NCBI RefSeq assembly: GCF_007991635.1
Contig: NZ_BJYS01000033.1
Span: forward strand, 1-64,000
Origin: Adhaeribacter aerolatus
Lineage (GTDB): Bacteria; Bacteroidota; Bacteroidia; Cytophagales; Hymenobacteraceae
Length of the DNA stretch: 64,000 bases
Reading direction: 5' to 3'
Part shown: positions 6,826 through 19,511 of the stretch, piece after piece
Numbering within the stretch: position 1 is the first letter of the stretch
Layout: every line of letters begins with the position of its first letter
Notes under the pieces: model-generated
Told to the model about the DNA's origin: nothing
The model's input: the letters and a program-made list of their open reading frames with translations, nothing else
Database searches by the model: none
Position numbers and translations under genes: made by a program

Positions 6826-9438
6826 TTACAACTCGGAGGTGCTTACTGCAAGGGCAACTTTAGCGCGGGCGCACCTTTTAAATAATTTCTCAATTTCAAC
6901 GGCAAAGAAAACAATACTGGAAACGGCAAGCACCAGACCTAATTCTTCTAAACTTAAAGGTTTGGTCCGGAAAATGGGATTTAAAACCGGCACGTAAATA
7001 GTAAGTAATTGCAGCACTACGGTGAGGAGCAGCGCCCCGAGTAAAGGTTTATTGCTGAATAAGCCTTGCCGGAAGAGAGATTGGTCATCGGAGCGAATGG
7101 CGAGCAAGTGGCCCATCTGGCTAAAACATAACACCGAAAAAACCATGGTTTGCCAGTTCTCCGGATCGTGTTTTATGGCCCATGCCTGCGTACCAATACA
7201 TAGTAATCCGAGCAAAAGACCTACCCATAATATATGTATAGCCAAACCACCAGCAAATATATTTTTGGTAGGATTGCGGGGCGGCCGGTTCATAATATTG
7301 GTCTCGGCCGGCTCCGATGCCAATGCCAAACCAGGCAAGCCATCGGTTACCAGGTTAACCCACAAAATATGGATGGGCAGCAGCGGCACGGGCAAGCCAA
7401 AAAACGGTGCTAAAAAAATAGTCCAGATTTCGCCGGAGTTACCGGTTAAAACATATTTAATAAAGCGTAGAATATTATCGAATATCTTGCGTCCGCTCCG
7501 CACCGCCTTCACTATGGTGGTAAAATTATCGTCGAGCAATATCATGTGGGCGGCTTCTTTCGAAACTTCGGTTCCGTTGATGCCCATGGCAACGCCAATA
7601 TCGGCATTCTTTAAAGCCGGGGCGTCGTTTACGCCGTCGCCGGTCATGGCTACAAACTGGTCTTTATCCTGTAGGCCTTTTATTATTTTTAATTTTTGTT
7701 CGGGACTTACCCGCGCATACACTTTTACTTTAAGCACTATTTTTTCAAAATCCTCCTGGCTCAGCGCAGCCAGTTCGGTGCCGGTTAAAATCAGGTCGTC
7801 TTCCGACTGAATAATGCCAATGGTGCGGGCAATGGCGCTGGCTGTAAGCGGATGGTCGCCGGTAATCATTACCGGAATAATGCCGGCATGGCGGCATTGG
7901 GCTACGGCATCTTTGGCTTCTTCGCGGGCCGGATCGATTAAGCCGGCAAAGCCCACAAAACGGATATCGTTTTCTACCTGACCGGCGGTGATTTTTTCCG
8001 GCAGGGTATCCATTAATTTAACACCGTACCCGAGCACCCGCAAGCCTTCGGAGGCCAACTTATCAGCCGCTTCCTGCCACACCCCAATTTTAGGCTCATC
8101 TTCGGGGGCCAGTTTATTAAAAAGTACATCGGTGGCGCCTTTGGTAATAACTAAATATCCGTTTTGAAAAGCATGCACCGTCGTCATCAGTTTCCGCTGC
8201 GAATCGAAAGGCAATTCGGTATAACGAGGCAGTTTTACTTCCCAATCGGGCCGCAGAAAGTTCTTGGCCGCCGCATATTCGTAAAGCGCCGTTTCGGTCG
8301 ATTCGCCCAAAATATTACCTTCTTCGTTGCGGGTAACATCGTTGTTCAGGGCCATACAAATTAATAGCAGTTCTTCTTTGGCGTAAGGAACCTCCGGCAG
8401 GTTTACCGCTACGGCTACGGCAGCTTGCACCGTCATTTTATTAATCGTAAGCGTACCCGTTTTGTCGGAGCAGATATAAGTAACCGAACCCAGCGTTTCT
8501 ACAGCCGGCAGTTTCCGGATGAGGGCATTTTGGATAACCATGCGTTTAGCGCCCAAAGCCAGCGAAATGGTTACCACTGCCGGCAAGGCCTCCGGAATAG
8601 CCGCTACCGCCAGCGAAATGGCCGTCATGAGCATAACCAGTACAGCTTCGCCCCGCAATACCCCCATCACAAAAACAATGATGCATATAAATATGATCAC
8701 AATGGTCAGGCGCTTACCAAAGGCCGCCAGTCTTTTTTGCAGCGGCGTGGTGGTATCTTCGCCCTGAATCATTTTGGCAATATTGCCCAGTTCGGTGCCC
8801 ATACCCGTACCCGTAACGTACCCTACACCGCGGCCGCTCGTAATATTAGTACCCTTATATGCCAGGTTTATCCGGTCGCCGAGTGGGTATTCGCCGGGCG
8901 GCAAAGCTTTAACATCTTTATCTATGTTATGCGATTCGCCGGTCAAAGCCGATTCGTCTACTTTTAACTGGTGCGTTATTATAAGCCGTAAATCAGCCGG
9001 CACAATATCACCTCCTTCGAGTAAAACTTTGTCGCCGGGTACCAATTCTGCCGAAGGAATGGTAACAGTCTGGCCGTTCCGGATTACTTTGGAAGCCGGC
9101 GAGGTCATTTTTTTCAGGGCTTCCATCGCTTTTTCGGCCCGGTATTCCTGCACAAAACCCATGATGGTATTCAGCAGAACTATAGCCAGAATAATAAAGG
9201 TATCGGTCCATTCGCCGAGTAAACCCGAAATAATAGAAGCTACAATCAGCACCAAAATCATAAAATCGGCCAACTGATCCAGCACCATGCGCCACCAGGG
9301 TTTCCGTTTTTGTTCCTCCATCTGGTTATAGCCATGTTGCTCCAGGCGGCGGGCAATTTCAGCGGTCGTTAAACCATTAGGGTTGGTTTTAAGAGCTGCA
9401 ATGGTATCGTCGGGGGTTAACAGGTGCCAGTCTTTCAT
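6826..9438 (-). CDS. Calcium-type (P2A) cation-transporting P-type ATPase
   Basis: 870 residues, full length. N-terminal cation-ATPase domain; actuator loop TGES at 166-169; PEALP in M4 at 282-286; phosphorylation motif CSDKTGT with Asp325; nucleotide-binding KGA at 433-435; MITGDHPLT; hinge GDGVNDAP at 600-607. In M5 the NSGE motif and in M6 the NLVTD motif keep the Asn, Glu, Thr and Asp used for Ca2+ by SERCA-like pumps, so Ca2+ export is the best guess; Mn2+ cannot be excluded. It stands alone with its own terminator. The ATG at 9438 fits the usual N-terminus of the family. Confidence 0.93.
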   Translation of the reverse strand: MKDWHLLTPDDTIAALKTNPNGLTTAEIARRLEQHGYNQMEEQKRKPWWRMVLDQLADFMILVLIVASIISGLLGEWTDTFIILAIVLLNTIMGFVQEYRAEKAMEALKKMTSPASKVIRNGQTVTIPSAELVPGDKVLLEGGDIVPADLRLIITHQLKVDESALTGESHNIDKDVKALPPGEYPLGDRINLAYKGTNITSGRGVGYVTGTGMGTELGNIAKMIQGEDTTTPLQKRLAAFGKRLTIVIIFICIIVFVMGVLRGEAVLVMLMTAISLAVAAIPEALPAVVTISLALGAKRMVIQNALIRKLPAVETLGSVTYICSDKTGTLTINKMTVQAAVAVAVNLPEVPYAKEELLLICMALNNDVTRNEEGNILGESTETALYEYAAAKNFLRPDWEVKLPRYTELPFDSQRKLMTTVHAFQNGYLVITKGATDVLFNKLAPEDEPKIGVWQEAADKLASEGLRVLGYGVKLMDTLPEKITAGQVENDIRFVGFAGLIDPAREEAKDAVAQCRHAGIIPVMITGDHPLTASAIARTIGIIQSEDDLILTGTELAALSQEDFEKIVLKVKVYARVSPEQKLKIIKGLQDKDQFVAMTGDGVNDAPALKNADIGVAMGINGTEVSKEAAHMILLDDNFTTIVKAVRSGRKIFDNILRFIKYVLTGNSGEIWTIFLAPFFGLPVPLLPIHILWVNLVTDGLPGLALASEPAETNIMNRPPRNPTKNIFAGGLAIHILWVGLLLGLLCIGTQAWAIKHDPENWQTMVFSVLCFSQMGHLLAIRSDDQSLFRQGLFSNKPLLGALLLTVVLQLLTIYVPVLNPIFRTKPLSLEELGLVLAVSSIVFFAVEIEKLFKRCARAKVALAVSTSEL

Positions 9439-9569
9439 CCGGATTAAGGTTATGGTAAAACGATGATCGTAAAGAGAGTCTTTATTACGAATTATATACT
9501 TATAGGCTGATACCTGCTTCTAAGCCCGGGAAATAATGGTAATGAAGGATAATAATGCTTAGGGTTTAT

Positions 9570-9902
9570 TTATTTGCTTTTAATCCGGATAAAGCCGCGG
9601 TCGTAAATTCGTTTGCCGCTAACCGCATCAAAAACATACCAGATATCTGCAACGTGGGTGGGAGTTGTATAGGAGGTTACAAATTCTTCGCTACCGTTTA
9701 TAGTTTTATAATCCGTTACCATTTCGTAACCGTCGGCCAGAGCCTGTTGATGGGCTTCTTCCTCATCGTCAGATTGGTCGAGGTAATTGTTGTAAACCTG
9801 GTGGTAAGCGTCGGTTACTGTTTCGTATAAGCGCTGCAAAGCCGATGAGTCGAATTCCATAAAACCTTCCGCATCTCTCGTCCATTTACCTTGTGTTTCC
9901 AT
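9570..9902 (-). CDS. Small acidic protein of unknown function
   Basis: 110 residues from the ATG at 9902. The same frame stays open to 10040, but that extension is AT-rich and unlike coding sequence, so the shorter start is preferred. The protein has an acidic middle (DQSDDEEEA) and a C-terminal part reading like a small alpha/beta fold (YVFDAVSGKRIYDRGFI). There is no signal peptide or membrane segment and I recognise no family. It is divergent from the response regulator gene and upstream of the ATPase gene on the same strand. Confidence 0.6.
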   Translation of the reverse strand: METQGKWTRDAEGFMEFDSSALQRLYETVTDAYHQVYNNYLDQSDDEEEAHQQALADGYEMVTDYKTINGSEEFVTSYTTPTHVADIWYVFDAVSGKRIYDRGFIRIKSK

Positions 9903-10217
9903 AGGTGGTAAAATAACAGAACAATTTTTGCATTTTCGGCTATTGCTACCATTAAGTTTTATTTCCGAAAAACATTTTGGCCACTTATTTGCTTTTGGCT
10001 TAGCTTTTATAACTATGTCAAAAACAACCGGCGGCTGCAATAAAATTTATTTCTCCCGTATAGGTTGTATTCCTCCGTAAAAGGCCCGAATAGCTTTGCC
10101 GGAAAGCGTATTTTGTAAATTCCGGTACCATCTCTGATAAAACTGGTCTGGGAGTGTTTAGGCTGGATTTTCAGGCAAAGGAAAGGATGAGATTAAACTT
10201 AAATTATAAATATTATT

Positions 10218-10225
10218 TACCTTTG
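10218..10225 (+). promoter_or_regulatory. Promoter -7 box (TAnnTTTG) of the response regulator gene
   Basis: TACCTTTG matches the Bacteroidota -7 consensus exactly. No good -33 TTTG lies 19-21 bp upstream. A start a few bases after 10225 would give a leader of about 15 nt before the ATG at 10244. Confidence 0.5.
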
Positions 10226-10243
10226 GGCATATAAGTTTAGTGA

Positions 10244-10639
10244 ATGGATAAGCTATTGCATAATATTTTGTTGGTAGATGATAACCTGACTACGATAAGT
10301 CTGAACAAGTTATTGATTGCCAAAGTTGAAAATGCGGTTGAATTGCATACTGCCCCCGATGGCAAAGCTGCCCTGGAGCTTTTACAGAAACTCGCCCAGG
10401 AAGGCACCCGGTTTCCGGATATTATTCTGGTTGATCTTAAAATGCCGGTGATGGATGGGATAGAATTTTACCGGCACTACAAGCAGGTTTTTACCCCGGA
10501 ACAAGTTTCGAACACCAAAGTCGTGATGCTTACCACGTCTTTGGCTCCCTCCGATTTTAAACAGGCAAAAGACGAAGGCATTGAATATTTCCTAAACAAG
10601 CCGTTAACCACTACCAAACTGAAAGAAATTTTAGTTTAA
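10244..10639 (+). CDS. Single-domain response regulator (CheY-like receiver)
   Basis: 131 residues, only a receiver domain. Acidic pair Asp12-Asp13, phospho-acceptor Asp64 (ILVDLKMP), Thr97/98 in MLTTS and Lys119 in NKP are all in place. It resembles the small Rcp-type receivers that accept phosphate from phytochrome-linked kinases. It lies 277 bp upstream of the phytochrome gene on the same strand, with its own promoter box. As there is no output domain, it probably passes phosphate on or binds a target protein. Pairing with the kinase encoded at 12502-16608 is inferred from position. Confidence 0.9.
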   Translation: MDKLLHNILLVDDNLTTISLNKLLIAKVENAVELHTAPDGKAALELLQKLAQEGTRFPDIILVDLKMPVMDGIEFYRHYKQVFTPEQVSNTKVVMLTTSLAPSDFKQAKDEGIEYFLNKPLTTTKLKEILV

Positions 10640-10916
10640 TATTTCGCTGCACTTAGGTGTACCCGGTTTTTAGCTGCCGGGCAAAACCCGTTATGAGCTA
10701 ATTTATTTAACTAAGTACCAGCAGCCAACGTAAATCAGGCCCAGGTAATGGAGGCCGTTTTATTCATATTAAATTTCAGGAGTGTTGCTCTAATATTAAA
10801 GCGCAAATGAAAGTTAGGCAGCTAAATAATTTCGTTTACGGGCTAAACAAAATAACCGGTTCTTTATTTATAGTTTTCTGCCCCATTGCCCATGCGGCTA
10901 AACCTGTTTTAACCAG

Positions 10917-12476
10917 ATGAGAAATCCGAACAGCAACCCAATAAATATTACCATAGAAAAAAATTACGATTCTGATTTTTGCGGTTCCATTCCGTTGCAT
11001 TTGGTTAATTTAATTCAGCCGCACGGCCTGTTGCTGGTGCTCGACAAAACTGATTTGCGGGTTGTGCAAGCGAGCGAAAATGTAAGCCGGCAATTTGCCG
11101 TACCCATCGAAGACATTTTAGAGATACCTTTTGCGGCGTTTCTGCCGGCCGCACAGTTCGAGGATTTCCAGCTTAAAATTCATCGCCAAAGCAGCCAGGA
11201 GAAAATACCCTTTAGCCTTGACTTTACGGCAAACGGCCGGTCCACGGCCTTTACCGCCCTGGTGCACCCCAAAGAAGAATATATTTTAATTGAACTGGAG
11301 GAACACGCGCCTACTACCCCGGAAAATTCATTTATCGGACTTTACCAGCAAATTAAATATATTACCTCACTGCTGAAACAAACCACCGATACGGCCGAAA
11401 CCGCTCACCTAACGGCCACCGAATTAAAACGCCTGACCAATTTCGACCGGGTTTTGGTTTACCAGTTCGATCCGCAGTGGAACGGCATTGTCATTGGCCA
11501 GGCCAAAGAACCGGATATGGACGATTACATGGATTTGCGTTTTCCGGCCTCCGACGTTCCCAAGCAGGCCCGCGATTTATATTTTCGCAACCCTTACCGG
11601 TTAATTCCCAGCCGGTCGTACCAACCTGTTGGCTTAATTCCGGTTATTAATCCGTTAACCATGCGGTTTACCGATTTATCGGATTGCAATTTACGCAGCG
11701 TAGCCACCGTTCATTTAGAGTACTTGCGCAACCTGAATGTAATGACTTCCATGTCTTTGCCCCTTATTATCGATGACAAGCTTTGGGGGTTAATTTCGTG
11801 TCATAACAAAACCCCGCTGAATCCGAGTTATGAATTAAGATCGGCACTGGAACTGCTGTCAGGTATTATTTCGGCGCAGCTGGCCGCCAAAGAAAAAGAA
11901 GCCGCCATGACGTTGCGGGTACACCTGCAGCGCATTTACGCCAATTTGCTGGAGCAAATGTATAACCAGCCAAGTTTTACCGAAGGGTTACTTTCCGGCG
12001 AAACCAGTCTGCTGGAGTTACTCCATTTATCGGGGGCAGCGGTTGTATACGATGGCGGCATTACGGTTATTGGCGACACACCCAACGAGCAGGAAATAAA
12101 AGAACTTACTTACTGGCTGCGCCGGCACGAGTCTAATAAATTATACATCACCAATACCTTGCCCTCGGTTTATGCCCGCAGCCAGGAATACAAAGCCATC
12201 GCCAGCGGTTTAATCGCTTTGTCTATCAACCCCGACCAGGGCGAATATATCCTGGGCTTCCGGCCCGAGGTGCTGCAAACCATTGCCTGGGGCGGCAACC
12301 CGAACCAGGCCATACAAATGGAGCCCGACGGCAAAGCTTACCACCCGCGTAATTCTTTTGCTACTTACCAGGAAATTGTAAAGGATACCTCTTTGCCCTG
12401 GATACCTCAGGAAGTAGAAGCCGCTGAAGCCTTGCGCAGTGCCGTGCTGGAGAAAATTATTAAAGAAAATTACTAA
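10917..12476 (+). CDS. Bacteriophytochrome photosensory core (PAS-GAF-PHY) without output domain
   Basis: 519 residues. PAS about 20-125 with Cys22 placed exactly before IQPHG, as the biliverdin-binding cysteine of bacteriophytochromes. GAF about 140-320 with PASDVP (Asp213), His266 in VATVHLEYLRN and His296 in SCHNKTP. PHY about 325-515 with the FRPE and WGG stretches and the tongue motif PRNSF (477-481). These are the parts needed to bind bilin and switch between red and far-red states. The protein stops right after PHY: the histidine kinase normally fused there is absent. The next gene starts 25 bp later and encodes a kinase, so signalling through a partner is likely. Confidence 0.88.
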   Translation: MRNPNSNPINITIEKNYDSDFCGSIPLHLVNLIQPHGLLLVLDKTDLRVVQASENVSRQFAVPIEDILEIPFAAFLPAAQFEDFQLKIHRQSSQEKIPFSLDFTANGRSTAFTALVHPKEEYILIELEEHAPTTPENSFIGLYQQIKYITSLLKQTTDTAETAHLTATELKRLTNFDRVLVYQFDPQWNGIVIGQAKEPDMDDYMDLRFPASDVPKQARDLYFRNPYRLIPSRSYQPVGLIPVINPLTMRFTDLSDCNLRSVATVHLEYLRNLNVMTSMSLPLIIDDKLWGLISCHNKTPLNPSYELRSALELLSGIISAQLAAKEKEAAMTLRVHLQRIYANLLEQMYNQPSFTEGLLSGETSLLELLHLSGAAVVYDGGITVIGDTPNEQEIKELTYWLRRHESNKLYITNTLPSVYARSQEYKAIASGLIALSINPDQGEYILGFRPEVLQTIAWGGNPNQAIQMEPDGKAYHPRNSFATYQEIVKDTSLPWIPQEVEAAEALRSAVLEKIIKENY

Positions 12477-12501
12477 GAGCCCGCAGGTTTTTGAAATAAA
12501 A

Positions 12502-15500
12502 ATGTCGTTACCCAGTAAAGATACAACATCCTCCTTGCCCGATTTTAAGCAGCCCAAAGCAAAAACCGACCATTATTTAATTGGGATTGGGGCTTCGGCC
12601 GGTGGCCTGGAAGCTATTCATAACCTTTTCGATCATTTTCCGAGCAACTCCAGCTTCTCTTTTGTGATTGTACAGCATTTATCGCCGGATCACAAAAGTT
12701 TAATGGCCGAGCTTTTATCGAAGCACACCCGCATGCAGGTACAGGAAGCAGAAGACGACATGCGCACCCGGCCCAACTGCATATATGTATTGCCCAGCGG
12801 CAAGCAACTTACTTTAAAAAAGGGCCGGTTACGGCTTACCGAAAAACTGCGCAGCCGCGAACCCAATTTTGCCATCGATGTATTTTTCGAATCGCTGGCC
12901 AAAGACCGGGGCCGTTACGCCATTGGCATTATTTTATCGGGCACGGGCACCGATGGCACCAAAGGCAGCCAGGCCATAAAAGCAGCCGGCGGCATGGTGG
13001 TGGTACAAGACCCCAGCACCGCCCGGTTCGATGGCATGCCCCGCAGCGCCATCGAAGCCGGCGCCGCTGATTACGTGCTGGGACCGGATTTAATGGCCCA
13101 TGAAATTCTGGAATACGTCAGGCAGATTCCGTTGGTAAAAGCGTTGGTAGAAACCCCGGAAGAAGACAGAAGACACCAGTTGTTGCACGAAATACTGGAT
13201 TTGATATGCAGCCATACCAAAACCGATTTTAAAGATTACAAAGAAGCTACCCTTTACCGCCGCATTACTAAACGCATGAACGAGGTAAAGGTAGACTCCC
13301 TGGAAGATTACCTGCATTACCTGCATAACCATCCGGCCGAAATTAAGCGTTTATGCCAGGAAATTTTAATTGGCGTAACCCGGTTTTTCCGCGACCCGGA
13401 GGCGTTTGAGCTGCTGAAACACGAGATTCTACCTAAAATAATAGCCGCCAAAACCAACGACGAAACCACCAAGGTTTGGGTAACGGCCTGCAGCACCGGC
13501 GAAGAAGCTTATTCTATCGCTATGCTGTTTCAGGAATGTTGCGCCGAAGCCAGCCACGAAGCCAAGGTTAAAATATTCGCCACCGACATCGACCAGCGGG
13601 CCCTGGACCGGGCCTCCAAAGGCATCTACCCGGCTTCTATTGCCAACGATGTATCAGCCGAGCGGCTGGAACGCTTTTTTTACACCAAAGGCAATAAATA
13701 CATTATTAATGCCGAGGTCCGCAAAATGGTGGTTTTTGCGAAGCACGATCTGCAGAAAGACCCACCCTACAGTAAACTGGATATTATTTCGTGCCGGAAC
13801 ATGCTGATTTATTTAAATCCGGGCTTGCAGAAGAAAGTGATGGCCACTTTTCCGTACGCCCTGAATATGAACGGCTACTTGTTTTTAGGTCCCAGTGAAC
13901 AACTCGGCGACATAAAGCCGTTTTTTAACGAAGAAAACCGCAAATGGAAAGTCTACCGGAAAATAAAAGAAAGTACCCGGCCACAATCCAGCTACGGTTT
14001 TAATCATTTGGTCCCGACTTTAGGCAGTAACAGCCATTTTCAGGTTAAAACCAGCCAGATTTCGCAATTTAACGAATCCTTTATGGATGCCGTAGGCGAA
14101 ACCTTTAAAATAACGGCTTTGTACGTAGATGAAAATTACCAGTTGCTTCACGGCATTGGCGATATAAACCAATATTTAAAATTCCCGAACAAGCGCCTGC
14201 AGTTTAACCTGCTAAAGGTAGTCCCCAAAGAGCTGGCTGTAATCCTAAGTGTCGATATCCGGAAAGTGCTGCGACACAACCAGGAGCCGGAAACCCGTCA
14301 GGTAGTTTTAAAACTGGGTCAGAAAAACCAGTTAATGCAAATTAATGTCCGGGCCCTCGAACTAGATAAAAACCAGCCCCGGGTAATCCTGGTGTTGTTG
14401 CAGGAAATCGGGCAAAGCGATATTACCCAGAAGCCCATTGAAACCTTGCAAATACCCGAGTCGGATTTTTACCGGCAGCTAACGGCCCTGGAACTGGAAT
14501 TAAAAGATGCCCACGAAAGCCTGCACCTGACCGTACAGGATTTAAGTACGGCCAACGAAGAACTGCAATCGTCTAACGAAGAGCTTATGTCTTCGAACGA
14601 GGAGTTGCAAAGCTCCAACGAAGAAATGCAATCGTTAAACGAAGAGCTGCACACCGTAAATTCCGAGCATCAGTTAAAAATAAAGGAGCTGCAAGAACTG
14701 AACGAAGACCTGGATAATTATATCCGGAGCTCCAATATTGCCCAGCTTTACCTCGATCACCAACTCGTCATCCGCCGTTTTACCCCCTCAGTAAAAACCC
14801 TGATTAACATTATCCAGAGCGATGTGGGACGGCCGATTCACCATTTGTCGCATAACCTGCGCAACAATACCCTTCTGGAAAATATTAAAGCGGTTAATAA
14901 TTCATCGGGGGAAGTAGAACAGGAAGTAGAAACCACCACCGGCCAATATTTTTTGATGCGGATAATCCCGTACCTGAAACAAGACGGCAACAAAGACGGC
15001 GTGGTGCTGAGCTTTGTGGATGTTACCGCCCTTACCACTTTAAGCAACGTAGTGCAGGGCGTACTAAACAGCTCCTTTAATAATATTATGGCTTTTGGCG
15101 CCATCCGCGACGAACACCATAAAATTACCGACTTCAGCTGGAATTTATTAAACCGGAAAGCGGAAGAATTAATCCGTAAACCACAGGCCCAACTGCAGCA
15201 TAGCAGCGTGCTCACTGAACTACCCATTTTAAAGAAAACCGGGCTTTTCCGGAAGTTTGCCGACGTAGTAGAAACCGGCAAACCCTTACATACCGAACAC
15301 AACCTGGAAATAAACGGCCGGAAAGAATGGTACGAAATATCGGGGGCCAAGGTAGGCGATGGTTTAACCATTACCATGGCCGAAATAACTCAGAAAAAAG
15401 CCAGTGAAGAAAAAATATTACTAGCCTACGAAGAGCTGAAAAAAGCCGAGGGTGAATTAAAAAAATTAAACAACAAACTGGAAGAACGGGTAGCCGAGCG

Positions 15501-16608
15501 TACCCAGCAGCTAACCGCCAGCGAAGAACGCTTCCGGCTGGTGTCTATGGCTACCAACGATGTGGTGTGGGACTGGGATCTGGTATCGAATGAGATTTGG
15601 TGGAGCGAAACCATTGAAGCCATGCTGGGCTACCCGGCCGGCCACATGGAAAAAGGGGTAGACGGCTGGTTTAATAAAGTGCATCCGGAGGATAGGGCTA
15701 AAATTAAAAAAGGCATTAACCAGGCCATAAACCTGGGCCGCGACCAGTGGATGGACGAATACCGGATTGCCAAAGCCGACGGCTCGTACGTGTATGTGTT
15801 TAACCGGGCCTATATTTTACACAACGAATACAAAATTCCGTACCGCGTTTTAGGTTCTTTTATTGATTTAACCGATTTAAAACAGGCGCAGCAAAAGCTG
15901 CAAAACACCAACGAACACCTGGTCCGGGTTATCGAAGATCTCGATATGTTTGTGTACACAGCTTCGCACGATTTAAAAGCGCCGGTAGCCAACGTAGAGG
16001 GCCTGGTGTTGCTCCTGGAAGAAGAAATTAATTCCGATGATCTTACGCCCGAAAGCACACAGCCTATTTTCGCGATGATTAAGGAATCTATCAATAGTTT
16101 TAAAACGGTTATTCACGATTTAACCGATATTGCCAAGGTTCAGCGCGATGTGGACGGCGAGGCCGAACTGGTAGATTTATATGATATTCTGGGGCAGGTG
16201 CGGGCCAATATCCAGGATTTAATCTCCGAAGTTCCCGTACAATTTCACATTAATTTTGAGGTTACGCAGCTAAACTTTTCGCGTAAGAATTTGTACAGTA
16301 TTTTCTATAATTTACTCAGCAATGCGGTTAAATACCGGTCCCCGGAACGTAATCCTGTAATTACCCTTATAACCCAGCGGCAGGATAATTATATAAAATT
16401 AGCAGTGGCCGACAACGGCCTGGGTTTGAGCCAGGAGAATGTCTCTAAATTATTTGTTTTGTTCCGGCGGTTCCACTCGCACGTAGGTGGTACGGGCATG
16501 GGCCTTTACATAGTAAAACGCATGATGGATAATGCCGGCGGCAAAATTGAAGTAGAAAGCGAAGAAGGCCAGGGCACCACCTTTAGCCTATTTTTTAGAG
16601 AAAATTAA
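12502..16608 (+). CDS. CheB-CheR-coiled coil-PAS sensor histidine kinase
   Basis: 1368 residues from the ATG at 12502; an upstream in-frame ATG at 12439 overlaps the phytochrome gene and gives an atypical N-terminus. CheB methylesterase about 25-205 with triad Ser32, His59, Asp151; CheR methyltransferase about 225-490 with the SAM motif TACSTGEEAYS and CRNMLIYL; a repeated SNEEL coiled coil near 680-750; PAS regions including one around 1020-1130; HisKA with His1156 in SHDLKAP; HATPase with N box near 1274, DNGLGL and GTGMGL. It combines receptor-type methylation chemistry with autophosphorylation. No sensory domain of clear ligand type is seen, so the neighbouring phytochrome is a plausible input. 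Confidence 0.88.
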   Translation: MSLPSKDTTSSLPDFKQPKAKTDHYLIGIGASAGGLEAIHNLFDHFPSNSSFSFVIVQHLSPDHKSLMAELLSKHTRMQVQEAEDDMRTRPNCIYVLPSGKQLTLKKGRLRLTEKLRSREPNFAIDVFFESLAKDRGRYAIGIILSGTGTDGTKGSQAIKAAGGMVVVQDPSTARFDGMPRSAIEAGAADYVLGPDLMAHEILEYVRQIPLVKALVETPEEDRRHQLLHEILDLICSHTKTDFKDYKEATLYRRITKRMNEVKVDSLEDYLHYLHNHPAEIKRLCQEILIGVTRFFRDPEAFELLKHEILPKIIAAKTNDETTKVWVTACSTGEEAYSIAMLFQECCAEASHEAKVKIFATDIDQRALDRASKGIYPASIANDVSAERLERFFYTKGNKYIINAEVRKMVVFAKHDLQKDPPYSKLDIISCRNMLIYLNPGLQKKVMATFPYALNMNGYLFLGPSEQLGDIKPFFNEENRKWKVYRKIKESTRPQSSYGFNHLVPTLGSNSHFQVKTSQISQFNESFMDAVGETFKITALYVDENYQLLHGIGDINQYLKFPNKRLQFNLLKVVPKELAVILSVDIRKVLRHNQEPETRQVVLKLGQKNQLMQINVRALELDKNQPRVILVLLQEIGQSDITQKPIETLQIPESDFYRQLTALELELKDAHESLHLTVQDLSTANEELQSSNEELMSSNEELQSSNEEMQSLNEELHTVNSEHQLKIKELQELNEDLDNYIRSSNIAQLYLDHQLVIRRFTPSVKTLINIIQSDVGRPIHHLSHNLRNNTLLENIKAVNNSSGEVEQEVETTTGQYFLMRIIPYLKQDGNKDGVVLSFVDVTALTTLSNVVQGVLNSSFNNIMAFGAIRDEHHKITDFSWNLLNRKAEELIRKPQAQLQHSSVLTELPILKKTGLFRKFADVVETGKPLHTEHNLEINGRKEWYEISGAKVGDGLTITMAEITQKKASEEKILLAYEELKKAEGELKKLNNKLEERVAERTQQLTASEERFRLVSMATNDVVWDWDLVSNEIWWSETIEAMLGYPAGHMEKGVDGWFNKVHPEDRAKIKKGINQAINLGRDQWMDEYRIAKADGSYVYVFNRAYILHNEYKIPYRVLGSFIDLTDLKQAQQKLQNTNEHLVRVIEDLDMFVYTASHDLKAPVANVEGLVLLLEEEINSDDLTPESTQPIFAMIKESINSFKTVIHDLTDIAKVQRDVDGEAELVDLYDILGQVRANIQDLISEVPVQFHINFEVTQLNFSRKNLYSIFYNLLSNAVKYRSPERNPVITLITQRQDNYIKLAVADNGLGLSQENVSKLFVLFRRFHSHVGGTGMGLYIVKRMMDNAGGKIEVESEEGQGTTFSLFFREN

Positions 16609-16659
16609 TTTTATCCGGGCAAGCAGCACCTGGACGTTTTTGAAAGTAGAAAATTAAAT

Positions 16660-16959
16660 ATGTTTATATCCTTAAGTTCTTTTACCGTGGCCAACGACAT
16701 GGGCCAGGCCACCAAAGAAGCCTTTATTAACCGCCCGCACCTGGTAGATAAGGCTCCCGGGTTTATACGGATGGAAGTTTTTACAGCCCATGAAAATCCT
16801 AATGAATTCTGGCTGATGAGTTACTGGGAAAACGAAGAAAGCTTTAAAGTTTGGTACGACAGCCATCAATACCACGACTCGCACAGCGGCATTCCGAAAG
16901 GCGTAAAACTGGCACCCAAAAGCGTCTGGGTAAAATATTTCAACCACGTGGGTGATTAA
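16660..16959 (+). CDS. Antibiotic-biosynthesis-monooxygenase fold protein, IsdG/HmoA-like heme monooxygenase candidate
   Basis: 99 residues, a single ABM ferredoxin-like domain. Read against IsdG, the GF near residue 34 and the whole second half align: Trp65 and His75 fall at the spacing of the catalytic Trp67 and heme-ligand His77. The third catalytic residue, Asn7, is Ser here. IsdG-type enzymes open heme into a bilin-like product and release iron. The gene starts 51 bp after the kinase gene on the same strand and is followed by a hairpin, so it probably belongs to the phytochrome operon. Making the chromophore is an inference; a generic ABM quinol monooxygenase is the alternative. Confidence 0.7.
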   Translation: MFISLSSFTVANDMGQATKEAFINRPHLVDKAPGFIRMEVFTAHENPNEFWLMSYWENEESFKVWYDSHQYHDSHSGIPKGVKLAPKSVWVKYFNHVGD

Positions 16960-16962
16960 GGA

Positions 16963-17002
16963 ACCTCATCCCCCAACCCCTTCTCCTTTGGGCGAAGGGG
17001 AG
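16963..17002 (+). terminator. Hairpin repeat, copy 2, likely terminator of the phytochrome operon
   Basis: CCCCTTC (16977-16983) pairs with GAAGGGG (16994-17000), preceded by a C-rich run. Similar in make-up to the repeat at 985-1012. It lies 18 bp past the stop of the ABM-fold gene. There is no T tract, so termination is only possible. Confidence 0.4.
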
Positions 17003-17396
17003 CCGATCTGACAGTTATCTACTTACAACTCTTTTCACTTCGTCTTTTAAAAACTTTAATGTCTTTATTGGCCGTTTTGGTTTTTAGATTAGAATAAGCT
17101 GAACTCGTGAAACAATATTTATTTTGAAAGGCGATTTTTATGGCAAAGCCCTTTATTAATAATCATTCATCCTTTCAATATGCCGCAATAATTCTATAAT
17201 CCAAAATAATGCCTTTAATAGTTCCACTTAAAGCTGTCAGCACTCATATTGCCTATATAGCACTAAACCCGATCGCTAGCTTTTTAAATAAAGCTTTACT
17301 AAGCATTAATTCTATTTTTAACCCCTGATAGAACTGGACAATTCTAAGGCAGCCCTTTGGGTATATCATAAACCTAGCTGGCTATTCGTTTAAATA

Positions 17397-17410
17397 GTGA
17401 TATAAATCAC
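17397..17410 (+). promoter_or_regulatory. Candidate CRP/FNR-family binding site
   Basis: GTGATATAAATCAC is a palindrome of the GTGA-N6-TCAC form. It lies about 130 bp upstream of the hemoglobin ATG. Oxygen- or NO-responsive Crp/Fnr regulators are known to control globin genes; the link here is inference. Confidence 0.35.
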
Positions 17411-17538
17411 GCAAGGCTTTGATTTTCCTCCTAACTAAACTAAATAATAGGAGTGAAATTTGCATATGCTTTAATCATGAAACGGATAAGTTGGCGCTTA
17501 ATGCGCCTGCAACCGCTTACTATTTAAAAGAATAAAAG

Positions 17539-17910
17539 ATGAACTTACCTAAAAAAGATATAGCCAGCGCCGCCGACATCCAGTTATTAGTAGATGCTTA
17601 TTACCAAAAACTTAAATCTCAACCTTACCTGTTAGCGCTTTTCGAAGACCTCTCTTCCCGCGACTGGAACCAGCATTTATTCCAGATGAAAAGCTTCTGG
17701 CAATCGGTGGTACTGAAATCAGCGTCTTTTACCGGGCACCCTTTAATTTTACACGCTTTTCTGCCTGCCCACCAGGCCCAAGTTCGGGAATGGGTACATT
17801 TGTTTCACGAAGCGGTAGAGGAGCATTTTAAAGGGCCCACTGCCGCCGCCACCAAAAACTTTGCCGAGCAATTGGTACGCATATTTTCTTATAAACCTGC
17901 TAATACCTGA
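17539..17910 (+). CDS. Group III truncated hemoglobin
   Basis: 123 residues, normal for 2/2 hemoglobins. Proximal His72 in GHPLILHAFLP matches the F8 histidine of Campylobacter Ctb in position and context; Trp85 in REWVHLF matches the group III G8 tryptophan; Tyr21/22 supply B10. Group III globins bind O2 and are linked to microaerobic life and nitrosative stress. It follows the phytochrome block on the same strand but has its own 579-bp upstream region, so it is probably a separate unit. It is convergent with the next gene, with only 2 bp between the stops. Confidence 0.9.
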   Translation: MNLPKKDIASAADIQLLVDAYYQKLKSQPYLLALFEDLSSRDWNQHLFQMKSFWQSVVLKSASFTGHPLILHAFLPAHQAQVREWVHLFHEAVEEHFKGPTAAATKNFAEQLVRIFSYKPANT

Positions 17911-17912
17911 GG

Positions 17913-18449
17913 TTACCAAACCACTTGCTGGGACCGGCGTTTTACCTCCCGGATATATTTTCGGTCTAAACCGGTTTCATCGGCAATTTGCTTAACGGTT
18001 TTGCCTTGTTCCAGCTTTCTTTTAACCAGCTGCTCATTCGATAACCGGCTCCGTTTGGGTTTGGTCTTAGGTTTGGTTTTGGCCTTGGTGGTTACTTCGG
18101 TTTTACTTTTGGTAGCAGAAGCAACAGCCGGTTCGTCCCGGTTTTCAACTGGTTTCGGTTCCGGCTCCACCCGGTCCGGCGAATCGGGCTCTGCCGCTTC
18201 AGGTTCGCGGGAGGTATGAACGCTATGATGGAGCGACGCGGAATCCCGGCCGTAATTTTGGCTTTCTGCTTCGTAAGTTTCTTCGGGGGGAATATAGGTT
18301 GCTTCCGCAAAAGCCGGTTCGGGTTCGTATAACAGGTTAGATGGCCCGTATTGTACCGCGTAGATGGCCGCCGCAATAATTACAATTATCAGAATAGCTC
18401 CCAGGCCTCCCCCTCCTTTTTCCTCTCTGAGCCAACGTTTAAAATTCAT
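17913..18449 (-). CDS. Membrane-anchored protein with C-terminal HTH-like segment
   Basis: 178 residues. One transmembrane helix at about 15-33 after a basic N-terminus, a low-complexity acidic/proline linker (about 42-110), a Lys/Thr-rich stretch (115-135), then QGKTVKQIADETGLDRKYI (148-166), which reads like a resolvase-type helix-turn-helix. I know no named family. The positive-inside rule would put the C-terminus outside the cytoplasm, which clashes with DNA binding; the HTH may bind cell wall or protein instead, or the topology may be reversed. It starts 18 bp after the RHH-like gene and is likely co-transcribed with it. Confidence 0.6.
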   Translation of the reverse strand: MNFKRWLREEKGGGGLGAILIIVIIAAAIYAVQYGPSNLLYEPEPAFAEATYIPPEETYEAESQNYGRDSASLHHSVHTSREPEAAEPDSPDRVEPEPKPVENRDEPAVASATKSKTEVTTKAKTKPKTKPKRSRLSNEQLVKRKLEQGKTVKQIADETGLDRKYIREVKRRSQQVVW

Positions 18450-18467
18450 GGTAATATTTTCTTTCGG

Positions 18468-18647
18468 TTAAAGCCCGGGGTAATTCTTGGCTTCTTCAGT
18501 TTCCAGTTTTTCCAGGAGCAATTGCCGGAATAATCCGGCTAAGCTAATGCCTTTTTTATCGGCCAGCGACTTTCCCTTTTCGAGTAAATTTTTTTCCAGT
18601 CTTATCTGAAACGAAGTTTTAGCTATTTTGTCAATTGTTCCGGCCAT
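18468..18647 (-). CDS. Small ribbon-helix-helix-like protein
   Basis: 59 residues. After a short lead, TSFQIRLEKNLLEKGKSLA followed by a Gly turn and FRQLLLEKLE matches the beta strand-helix-helix order of Arc/MetJ-type DNA-binding dimers. AAGGAG lies 8 nt before the ATG at 18647, an unusually good ribosome binding site for this genome and the reason for trusting the start. The stop is 18 bp before the membrane HTH-like gene. It could be an antitoxin-type repressor, but no toxin gene was found beside it. Confidence 0.65.
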   Translation of the reverse strand: MAGTIDKIAKTSFQIRLEKNLLEKGKSLADKKGISLAGLFRQLLLEKLETEEAKNYPGL

Positions 18648-18845
18648 GAATCAGTACTCCTTAAAATCTATTTAAAATAATTGGTGGCAGTAAGTATTTG
18701 CCGATACGTAATTTCAGGAGCAGCGATACACATTTGTTACACAAATGTATTTATAATATTTGGCTAATTAAATAAAAGCCGCGATGCTCCTTACCAGGAA
18801 AACCGTGCCAGAATGCAGAATAGCTAATTTATAGGACGAAAAAAG

Positions 18846-18868
18846 AGCCTGCTGGCAGGGAGCAGGCT
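18846..18868 (-). terminator. Terminator of the SigZ gene
   Basis: AGCCTGCT (18846-18853) pairs with AGCAGGCT (18861-18868); on the minus strand the stem runs into CTTTTTT. It lies 28 bp past the sigma gene stop. Confidence 0.85.
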
Positions 18869-18896
18869 TGGTTAAGAGTTGGGAAAAGCAGAAGGC

Positions 18897-19511
18897 TTAT
18901 TGCTTTTTATCTAATAACTGTTGCAAAGGCAGGCAATCTGGCCGGGCCTCGGCTTGCATAATCCGGCCGCTCCGGTCTAATTCGAGGTAGCAGCACTCCT
19001 GGAACAAAACCTTTAGTTTTTCGCGGCCCCGCTGAATTCTGGATTTAGTATTGGAAAGAGAAAGGTTTAATTGGGCGGCAATATCTTTATGTGATAAGCC
19101 TTGGATATCGCTCAGGTAGAGCGGCTGAGCGTATTTTTCGGGCAGCATCGAAATTAAAGGCGCTACCAGTTCCAGCACGTCTTGCGCAAAATTACCATCG
19201 TTTTCGGACAGTGTTTCTTCGGCCACTTCCAACGACAGGCCGGGTTTGTTCATGCGGAAATAATCCATTACGGCGTTGCGGGTAACCTGGTACAGCCAGG
19301 CTTTCGGATTCTTAATTTCCGGTAAACTTTCGCAATGCTGGTATATTTTCAGGAAAAGCCCCTGGGCAATATCGTGGGTGGCGTCCGTATCCCGGACCTG
19401 TTTCTGAATAAAGCCTTTTAACTTTTCTTCGTAAGCTAAAAAAAAGGGTGCCACCTGCCCGCAGAGCGCCGGTGCGGTTTGGCAGCAGTTATTTTCCGTT
19501 TGGTTATTCAT
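18897..19511 (-). CDS. ECF RNA polymerase sigma factor, SigZ type
   Basis: 204 residues. Region 2 (DATHDIAQGLFLKIYQH) and region 4 (LSHKDIAAQLNLSLSNTKSRIQRGREKL) are clear. The C-terminal tail FQECCYLELDRSGRI with a later cysteine is characteristic of SigZ, and further cysteines sit near the N-terminus (CC at 9-10, C17), hinting at thiol or metal sensing. No FecR or zinc-finger anti-sigma gene is adjacent. The gene starts 10 bp after the acetyltransferase stop and is last in its operon. Confidence 0.85.
   Translation of the reverse strand: MNNQTENNCCQTAPALCGQVAPFFLAYEEKLKGFIQKQVRDTDATHDIAQGLFLKIYQHCESLPEIKNPKAWLYQVTRNAVMDYFRMNKPGLSLEVAEETLSENDGNFAQDVLELVAPLISMLPEKYAQPLYLSDIQGLSHKDIAAQLNLSLSNTKSRIQRGREKLKVLFQECCYLELDRSGRIMQAEARPDCLPLQQLLDKKQ

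Follow-up and report, generated by a model that had tools for sequence, protein, structure and literature searches.

A conserved two-gene bacteriophytochrome unit and a candidate bilin-supplying ABM-domain gene in Adhaeribacter aerolatus and its relatives

We analyzed a stretch of 64,000 nucleotides from Adhaeribacter aerolatus (contig NZ_BJYS01000033.1, positions 1 to 64,000; hereafter the window). In it a bacteriophytochrome photosensory core, here called the receptor, and a CheB-CheR-PAS-PAS-PAS-HisKA-HATPase hybrid histidine kinase, here called CBR, are encoded by neighboring genes, with a receiver-only response regulator upstream and a small ABM-domain protein downstream (Table 1). The two-gene light sensor is a real and conserved genomic unit. 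We consider it fairly probable that its products form a two-protein red/far-red sensor in which the receptor acts in trans on CBR and the ABM protein provides the bilin. The putative replacement of heme oxygenase is the more surprising part compared with the two-gene sensor, and it is easier to test.

Results

Receptor and CBR genes lie side by side across families

Pairing was surveyed in 204 genomes of the family and 390 genomes of the order, the matches listed reaching receptors down to about 275 bits and about 244 bits, respectively (G and L numbers denote genomes and loci). A PHY gene is present in 163 of the 204 family genomes. Among the matches listed, there are 66 receptors at 49% identity or above and 66 CBR orthologs at 46% or above, in the same 66 genomes, and in every one of these the two genes are adjacent and on the same strand. 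The other family receptors listed have open frames of at least 736 amino acids (aa), that is, they bear a kinase, save for one in G128 that is considered below. Order-wide, 38 short receptors are listed, 25 of them within the family, all counted among the 66, and 13 in four other families; all 13 adjoin a CBR ortholog, and the remaining matches listed have frames of at least 741 aa. The order of the genes is reversed in L153-L155, where CBR precedes the receptor with an 11-bp overlap, and is receptor-CBR in most other loci. In a first scan, a CBR ortholog was found directly downstream of the receptor in 21 of 21 relatives from Adhaeribacter, Pontibacter, Rufibacter and Sabulibacter (L032-L052, 59-80% identity); a 22nd locus, L053, with about 19-20% identity and no such arrangement, was dropped. 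The genome counts are independent, the locus counts are not, as named loci overlap the G genomes (for example, L032 equals L180).

The initial annotation, made from the window alone, had named three outcomes that would speak against a two-protein sensor: no conserved neighborhood in relatives, a frameshift splitting a former fusion in this strain only, and two proteins that neither interact nor make the kinase respond to light. The pairing is conserved and there is no sign of a recent frameshift, the arrangement being kept well beyond the window strain, so the first two of these objections fail.

As a control, we compared short-receptor loci with fused receptor-kinase loci. An open reading frame (ORF) with a CheB or CheR domain lies within 5 kb in 48/48 of the former but in only 4/52 of the latter (L120, L174, L176, L177); L122 from G128 was excluded as it fits neither set. 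Since the flanks vary and the loci are related, this control is a description to which no probability is attached.

Several further features of these loci were recorded. CheB-only or CheB-CheR kinase genes stand beside fused phytochromes from other families in L174 (4174-4776), L176 (7509-11132) and L177 (8589-12209), which hints at a wider link between CheB/CheR and phytochromes. Loci L106-L125 and L168-L170 contain heme oxygenase, a fused bacteriophytochrome photoreceptor (BphP)-kinase, often a receiver, and then a kinase ORF, which has an N-terminal receiver in both loci scanned (L107, L123). CBR is spread over three ORFs in G268 (L159), and receptor and CBR are both broken in G379 (L162); the gene pieces in these two loci and in L137 (G002) reflect real decay or sequencing error.

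The receptor is a complete photosensory core that ends after PHY

Pfam places PAS_2 at residues 25-128, GAF at 159-323 and PHY at 338-516 of the receptor and finds no further family; the alignment puts its C-terminus at the end of the PHY helix. This agrees with the initial description of a 519-aa protein that stops after PHY, and no kinase is fused behind PHY in the 66 listed orthologs, whose open frames measure 512-581 aa. The hallmarks of a bilin-binding bacteriophytochrome core are all there: the PAS-GAF-PHY order, the N-terminal Cys, the PAS(D)xP motif, the GAF His pair and the PRxSF tongue, with Cys22, Asp213, His266, His296 and PRNSF at the positions first assigned to them. In an alignment of 49 receptors (the window and 48 loci, certain species being included twice), Cys22, Ala211, Ser212, Asp213, Pro215, Arg228, Arg260, His266 and His296 are identical throughout; in the tongue, Pro477 is kept in 49/49 and Arg478 in 48/49. 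The nearest solved structures are phytochrome photosensory modules (best E 3.1e-113). No other PHY gene was detected in the window's own genome, so that a fused phytochrome kinase is not available as a partner for the receptor.

CBR differs from its paralogs in the C-terminal half

The predicted CheB-CheR-PAS-histidine kinase of 1368 aa, 25 bp downstream of the receptor, is confirmed by coordinates and Pfam. Its front half consists of CheB (27-202), CheR_N (229-278), CheR (292-480), PAS_10 (737-842) and PAS_4 (877-966), its back half of PAS_3 (1032-1118), HisKA (1148-1214) and HATPase_c (1262-1366). The HisKA match scores 26.6 bits, 0.3 below the Pfam cut-off of 26.9, with the kinase motif residues all kept and the phosphoacceptor assigned by motif to His1156. 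The CheB Ser/His/Asp, CheR Asp/Asn and kinase His, N, G1 and G2 residues are kept in 47/47 partner CBRs, and CheR Glu334 in 46/47. CBR thus has both the domains and the CheB, CheR and HisKA kinase catalytic residues of a CheB-CheR-PAS-histidine kinase. The initial impression that it has no obvious ligand domain does not hold, as at least three PAS domains are candidate sensor domains.

We compared seven partner CBRs, drawn from five families, with twelve CheB-CheR paralogs. In the front half (CheB, CheR, PAS_10 and PAS_4), partners resemble paralogs as closely as they resemble one another, with CheR at 51% among partners and 50% to paralogs. In the back half, identity among partners versus paralogs is 55% versus 13% for the coiled coil (967-1031), 45% versus 18% for PAS_3, 50% versus 11% for HisKA and 53% versus 22% for HATPase. 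Of the paralogs scanned, one from the window's own genome has HisKA_3 and one from G002 has no HisKA match. Because only the back half sets partners apart from paralogs, it appears to be the likelier site of receptor input. The CBR partners in L156 (2948-7468), L157 and L161 (6995-11851) are longer, at 1506-1618 aa, with an additional PAS region ahead of the kinase.

We considered the kinase end of CBR as the detached kinase of the old phytochrome and dropped this idea, since that end has 44 matches in its own genome; its best matches elsewhere are ordinary PAS kinases, not those beside or within phytochromes. The genome encodes one methyl-accepting chemotaxis protein (MCP)-type protein, with the domain at G000:C27:55723-56265 within a 1580-aa frame, which is a possible substrate of CheB and CheR.

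Short receptors share one origin, while the receiver varies

A FastTree phylogeny built from 96 receptors groups the short ones in a single clade with 44 members (support 0.835). Drawn as its neighbor is the branch of a fused PAS-GAF-PHY-PAS-HisKA-HATPase receptor from G327, a genome that also carries a CBR ortholog on a separate contig. We read this as a sign that the covalent kinase may have been lost after the partnership with CBR had formed.

The phosphate acceptor of the upstream receiver is probably Asp64, judged by motif. The lone receiver reported at first is present in the window and, at 82% identity, also adjoins the pair in G005, a sister genome, while in 8/13 loci of other families a receiver of 34-43% identity is found no more than 8 kb from the pair. 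It is not a fixed part of the unit, however: Rufibacter- and Pontibacter-type pairs have no adjoining receiver, and in L042 and L172 receivers of 28-30% identity are some kb away. The best of its 20 matches in the PDB, 3ilh, is a response regulator that is not of phytochrome type; the matches also include 8avv, a bacteriophytochrome-response regulator fusion, and 1k68 (RcpA).

ABM gene and canonical heme oxygenase exclude each other in PHY genomes

Heme oxygenase here means the canonical PF01126 type, to which the searches were confined, as distinct from the HugZ, ChuS and ChuW types. By Pfam, it is present in 76/204 family genomes and has no match in the window's own genome. In 17 further PHY genomes, where PF01126 gave no match, a heme-oxygenase ORF sits beside the receptor, so the Pfam model misses some members, and we therefore built a more sensitive model from 15 sequences and ran it on 80 genomes. 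It matched in all 10 non-ABM genomes tried and in 0/70 ABM genomes, the window's own included. The ABM protein has 71 matches in 70 family genomes, a count that leaves out two weak matches (G051, 22.7 bits; a second match in G182, 22.6 bits) and contains one with an internal stop (G173).

Taken together, the 163 PHY genomes divide into 95 with heme oxygenase and 68 with ABM; none has both and none has neither. The 95 comprise 76 found by Pfam, 17 by receptor-adjacent ORFs and 2 by the sensitive model. G002, whose heme oxygenase is split into two overlapping ORFs, was scored as present, and G061 was scored from the sensitive model, its PF01126 match lying elsewhere and below cut-off. Among the 41 genomes that lack PHY, ABM occurs in two and heme oxygenase in none. 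Both states are found within the window's genus, with ABM in G000, G001 and G005 and heme oxygenase in G002, G003, G004 and G007. Run on 23 genomes other than its own, the ABM profile gave no match; absence of ABM elsewhere is based on this profile and one protein query.

Of the 71 ABM genes, 20 are close to the receptor-CBR pair, 16 of them downstream and 4 upstream of it, and among the other 51 there are 22 close to a fused receptor; in all, 42/71 neighbor a phytochrome locus, and the arrangement varies. Trp65, His69 and His75 are invariant in 64/64 distinct ABM sequences. The top NCBIfam match is HmuQ with 38.6 bits, far under the cut-off of 130, and in the PDB the protein best matches TT1380 (1iuj) and MhuD entries. 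Judged by the genomic pattern, the ABM protein is a candidate bilin source, and a small ABM enzyme may have taken over the making of the receptor pigment.

Layout of the locus

The interval first outlined, 10244-16959, correctly holds the gene pair and the receiver, but its description overlooked the ABM gene within it and, with that gene, the putative replacement of heme oxygenase. All four genes point in the same direction, and CBR and the ABM gene are separated by 51 bp. An in-frame GTG at 12439, upstream of the ATG in Table 1, would give a CBR of 1389 aa.

Table 1 Genes of the receptor-CBR locus in the window.
Gene product	Position	Strand	Length and evidence
Receiver-only response regulator	10244..10639	+	131 aa; PF00072, 69.6 bits
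Bacteriophytochrome photosensory core (receptor)	10917..12476	+	519 aa; Pfam PAS_2, GAF, PHY
CBR (CheB-CheR-PAS-PAS-PAS-HisKA-HATPase hybrid histidine kinase)	12502..16608	+	1368 aa; ATG start
ABM-domain protein	16660..16959	+	99 aa; PF03992, 49 bits (cut-off 23.1)

Further downstream, a small protein at 17539-17910 (+) has a sub-threshold match to bacterial globin (PF01152, 16.8 bits versus a cut-off of 21), and its counterpart in G005, 81% identical, is also downstream. An Rfam scan of 9000-19000 found no RNA element. Scans for sigma-70 promoters (20 versus 12.7 in shuffled sequence, standard deviation 3.9; sigma-70 rules may not fit this phylum) and for terminators (18 versus 12.4, standard deviation 4.1) stayed near the shuffled level, and PADLOC gave no match for the three proteins scanned.

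Discussion

Comparison with known systems

In the openly licensed literature searched, we found no report of the receptor-CBR pair and none of a link between ABM and phytochromes. Like fused-kinase BphPs of the DrBphP, PsBphP1 and Cph1 type, the window receptor has a PAS-GAF-PHY core with the Cys, Asp and His residues and the PRxSF tongue, a receiver nearby and, in relatives, a heme oxygenase nearby; unlike them, it has no kinase of its own, the kinase being a separate CheB-CheR-PAS protein. CheB-CheR-PAS-histidine kinase hybrids are annotated as 'chemotaxis protein CheB' or similar. CBR resembles them in its N-terminal two thirds (CheB, CheR, coiled coil, PAS_10 and PAS_4, with about 50% identity in CheB/CheR), but has a different C-terminal kinase module and a dedicated phytochrome gene alongside. 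The ABM protein shares the ABM domain and the Trp and proximal-His positions with IsdG-type enzymes (IsdG/IsdI, MhuD, HmoB, HmuQ/HmuD, LFO1), from which it differs by a Ser in place of the catalytic Asn, by its phytochrome gene neighbors and by scores far under the curated cut-offs. Heme oxygenases of the BphO/HO-1 type (PF01126), which in sister genomes stand beside BphP, fill the same genomic role as the ABM protein, but the two belong to unrelated fold families.

Proposed mechanism

In the mechanism that we propose, the photosensory core would bind bilin on Cys22 and signal in trans to the separate CBR protein, presumably through physical contact, rather than through a covalent helix into a kinase of its own. 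Under this light control, CBR would autophosphorylate at His1156 and hand the phosphate to the receiver from the upstream gene. The CheB and CheR domains of CBR may tune how sensitive the output is by methylating and demethylating a partner, for example the single MCP-type receptor of the genome. The bilin in this lineage would come from the adjoining ABM gene and not from a canonical heme oxygenase.

Alternative explanations

Several observations, on the pair as well as on the ABM gene, weigh against this mechanism. The short receptor of G128 (506-528 aa, 32% identity, in another clade) has no CBR nearby; at its locus (L122, 6956-9255) a kinase ORF overlaps the receptor end, as after a frameshift. 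CBR orthologs without an adjoining receptor exist as a second copy in G324 (L151) and in G327 (L152), and four more are found on short contigs (L158, L160, L163, L164). The kinase end of CBR is a very common type, the best of its matches in the same genome reaching 43-47% identity, and is therefore not specially phytochrome-like. The receptor and CBR tree distances correlate with r 0.94 (43 tips), but this value was computed without a background control, so it shows co-inheritance only and is not used here as evidence of interaction. The orphan CBR genes of L151 and L152 and the three PAS domains would both fit an arrangement in which receptor and CBR are co-regulated and not physically coupled, CBR sensing its own cue via PAS and the receptor targeting another protein, much as the repressor PpsR2 is the target of RpBphP1. 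We regard such uncoupling as unlikely in the face of adjacency in 66/66 and 13/13 cases among the matches listed, in two gene orders and with the 11-bp overlap; among the gene types searched, none is so constantly beside the receptor, as receiver, heme oxygenase and ABM all vary. Far less credible still is a recent frameshift or stop that split a former fusion in the window strain. The split point does coincide with the expected start of the helix that leads into a fused kinase, yet the next gene opens with CheB, not with a kinase, and the same arrangement in the 21 relatives of the first scan and in other families led us to reject this explanation.

The ABM protein could also be an unrelated oxygenase that handles heme or is of quinone type, with the bilin made by another enzyme (for example, of HugZ type) or taken up from outside. 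Ser6 occupies the position of the catalytic Asn in 64/64 distinct ABM sequences. According to excerpts of PMC5557675 and PMC6018153, IsdG-type enzymes are defined by a catalytic Asn, Trp and His, all characterized ones need the Asn, and its mutation to Ala lowers the activity of MhuD. Given this definition and the Ser, we do not file the protein as an IsdG-type heme oxygenase, although it has the ABM domain. As excerpted from PMC8801480, moreover, characterized IsdG-type enzymes yield staphylobilin or mycobilin and not biliverdin, mycobilin being the product of MhuD with biliverdin minor. G008 (L135) and G009 (L126) carry ABM without PHY, and canonical heme oxygenase is absent from them too. 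Of the 51 ABM genes away from the pair, 29 have no phytochrome in the 12-kb stretch around them (about 6 kb each way). Outside the window's genus the ABM and heme-oxygenase states follow genus blocks, so that a single replacement event may account for the pattern. Against an unrelated function stand the exact exclusion with canonical heme oxygenase in 163/163 PHY genomes, the many ABM genes near phytochrome loci (42/71) in several arrangements, and the invariant Trp and His residues. On balance, an unrelated oxygenase strikes us as possible but not the likely answer, and we keep the two-protein sensor with bilin from the ABM protein as our preferred interpretation. A further-reaching version of it, which we put forward tentatively, is an all-in-trans phytochrome family that combines a CheB-CheR methylation-coupled kinase with a re-tooled, IsdG-like (Asn to Ser) chromophore enzyme; ABM in Adhaeribacter, Rufibacter and Pontibacter would then represent a second route to biliverdin IX-alpha or yield a new natural bilin.

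Implications

If the two-protein sensor is real, phytochrome light sensing and kinase output would be separable into two natural proteins, and control of the kinase by the PHY helix, long argued, would become testable by mixing, titrating and swapping the parts. The pair would also be a ready-made two-part red-light switch, and light would be linked to receptor methylation by CheB and CheR inside a single kinase. If heme oxygenase has indeed been replaced, either ABM proteins are able to produce biliverdin or the chromophore of some phytochromes is a bilin that has yet to be described.

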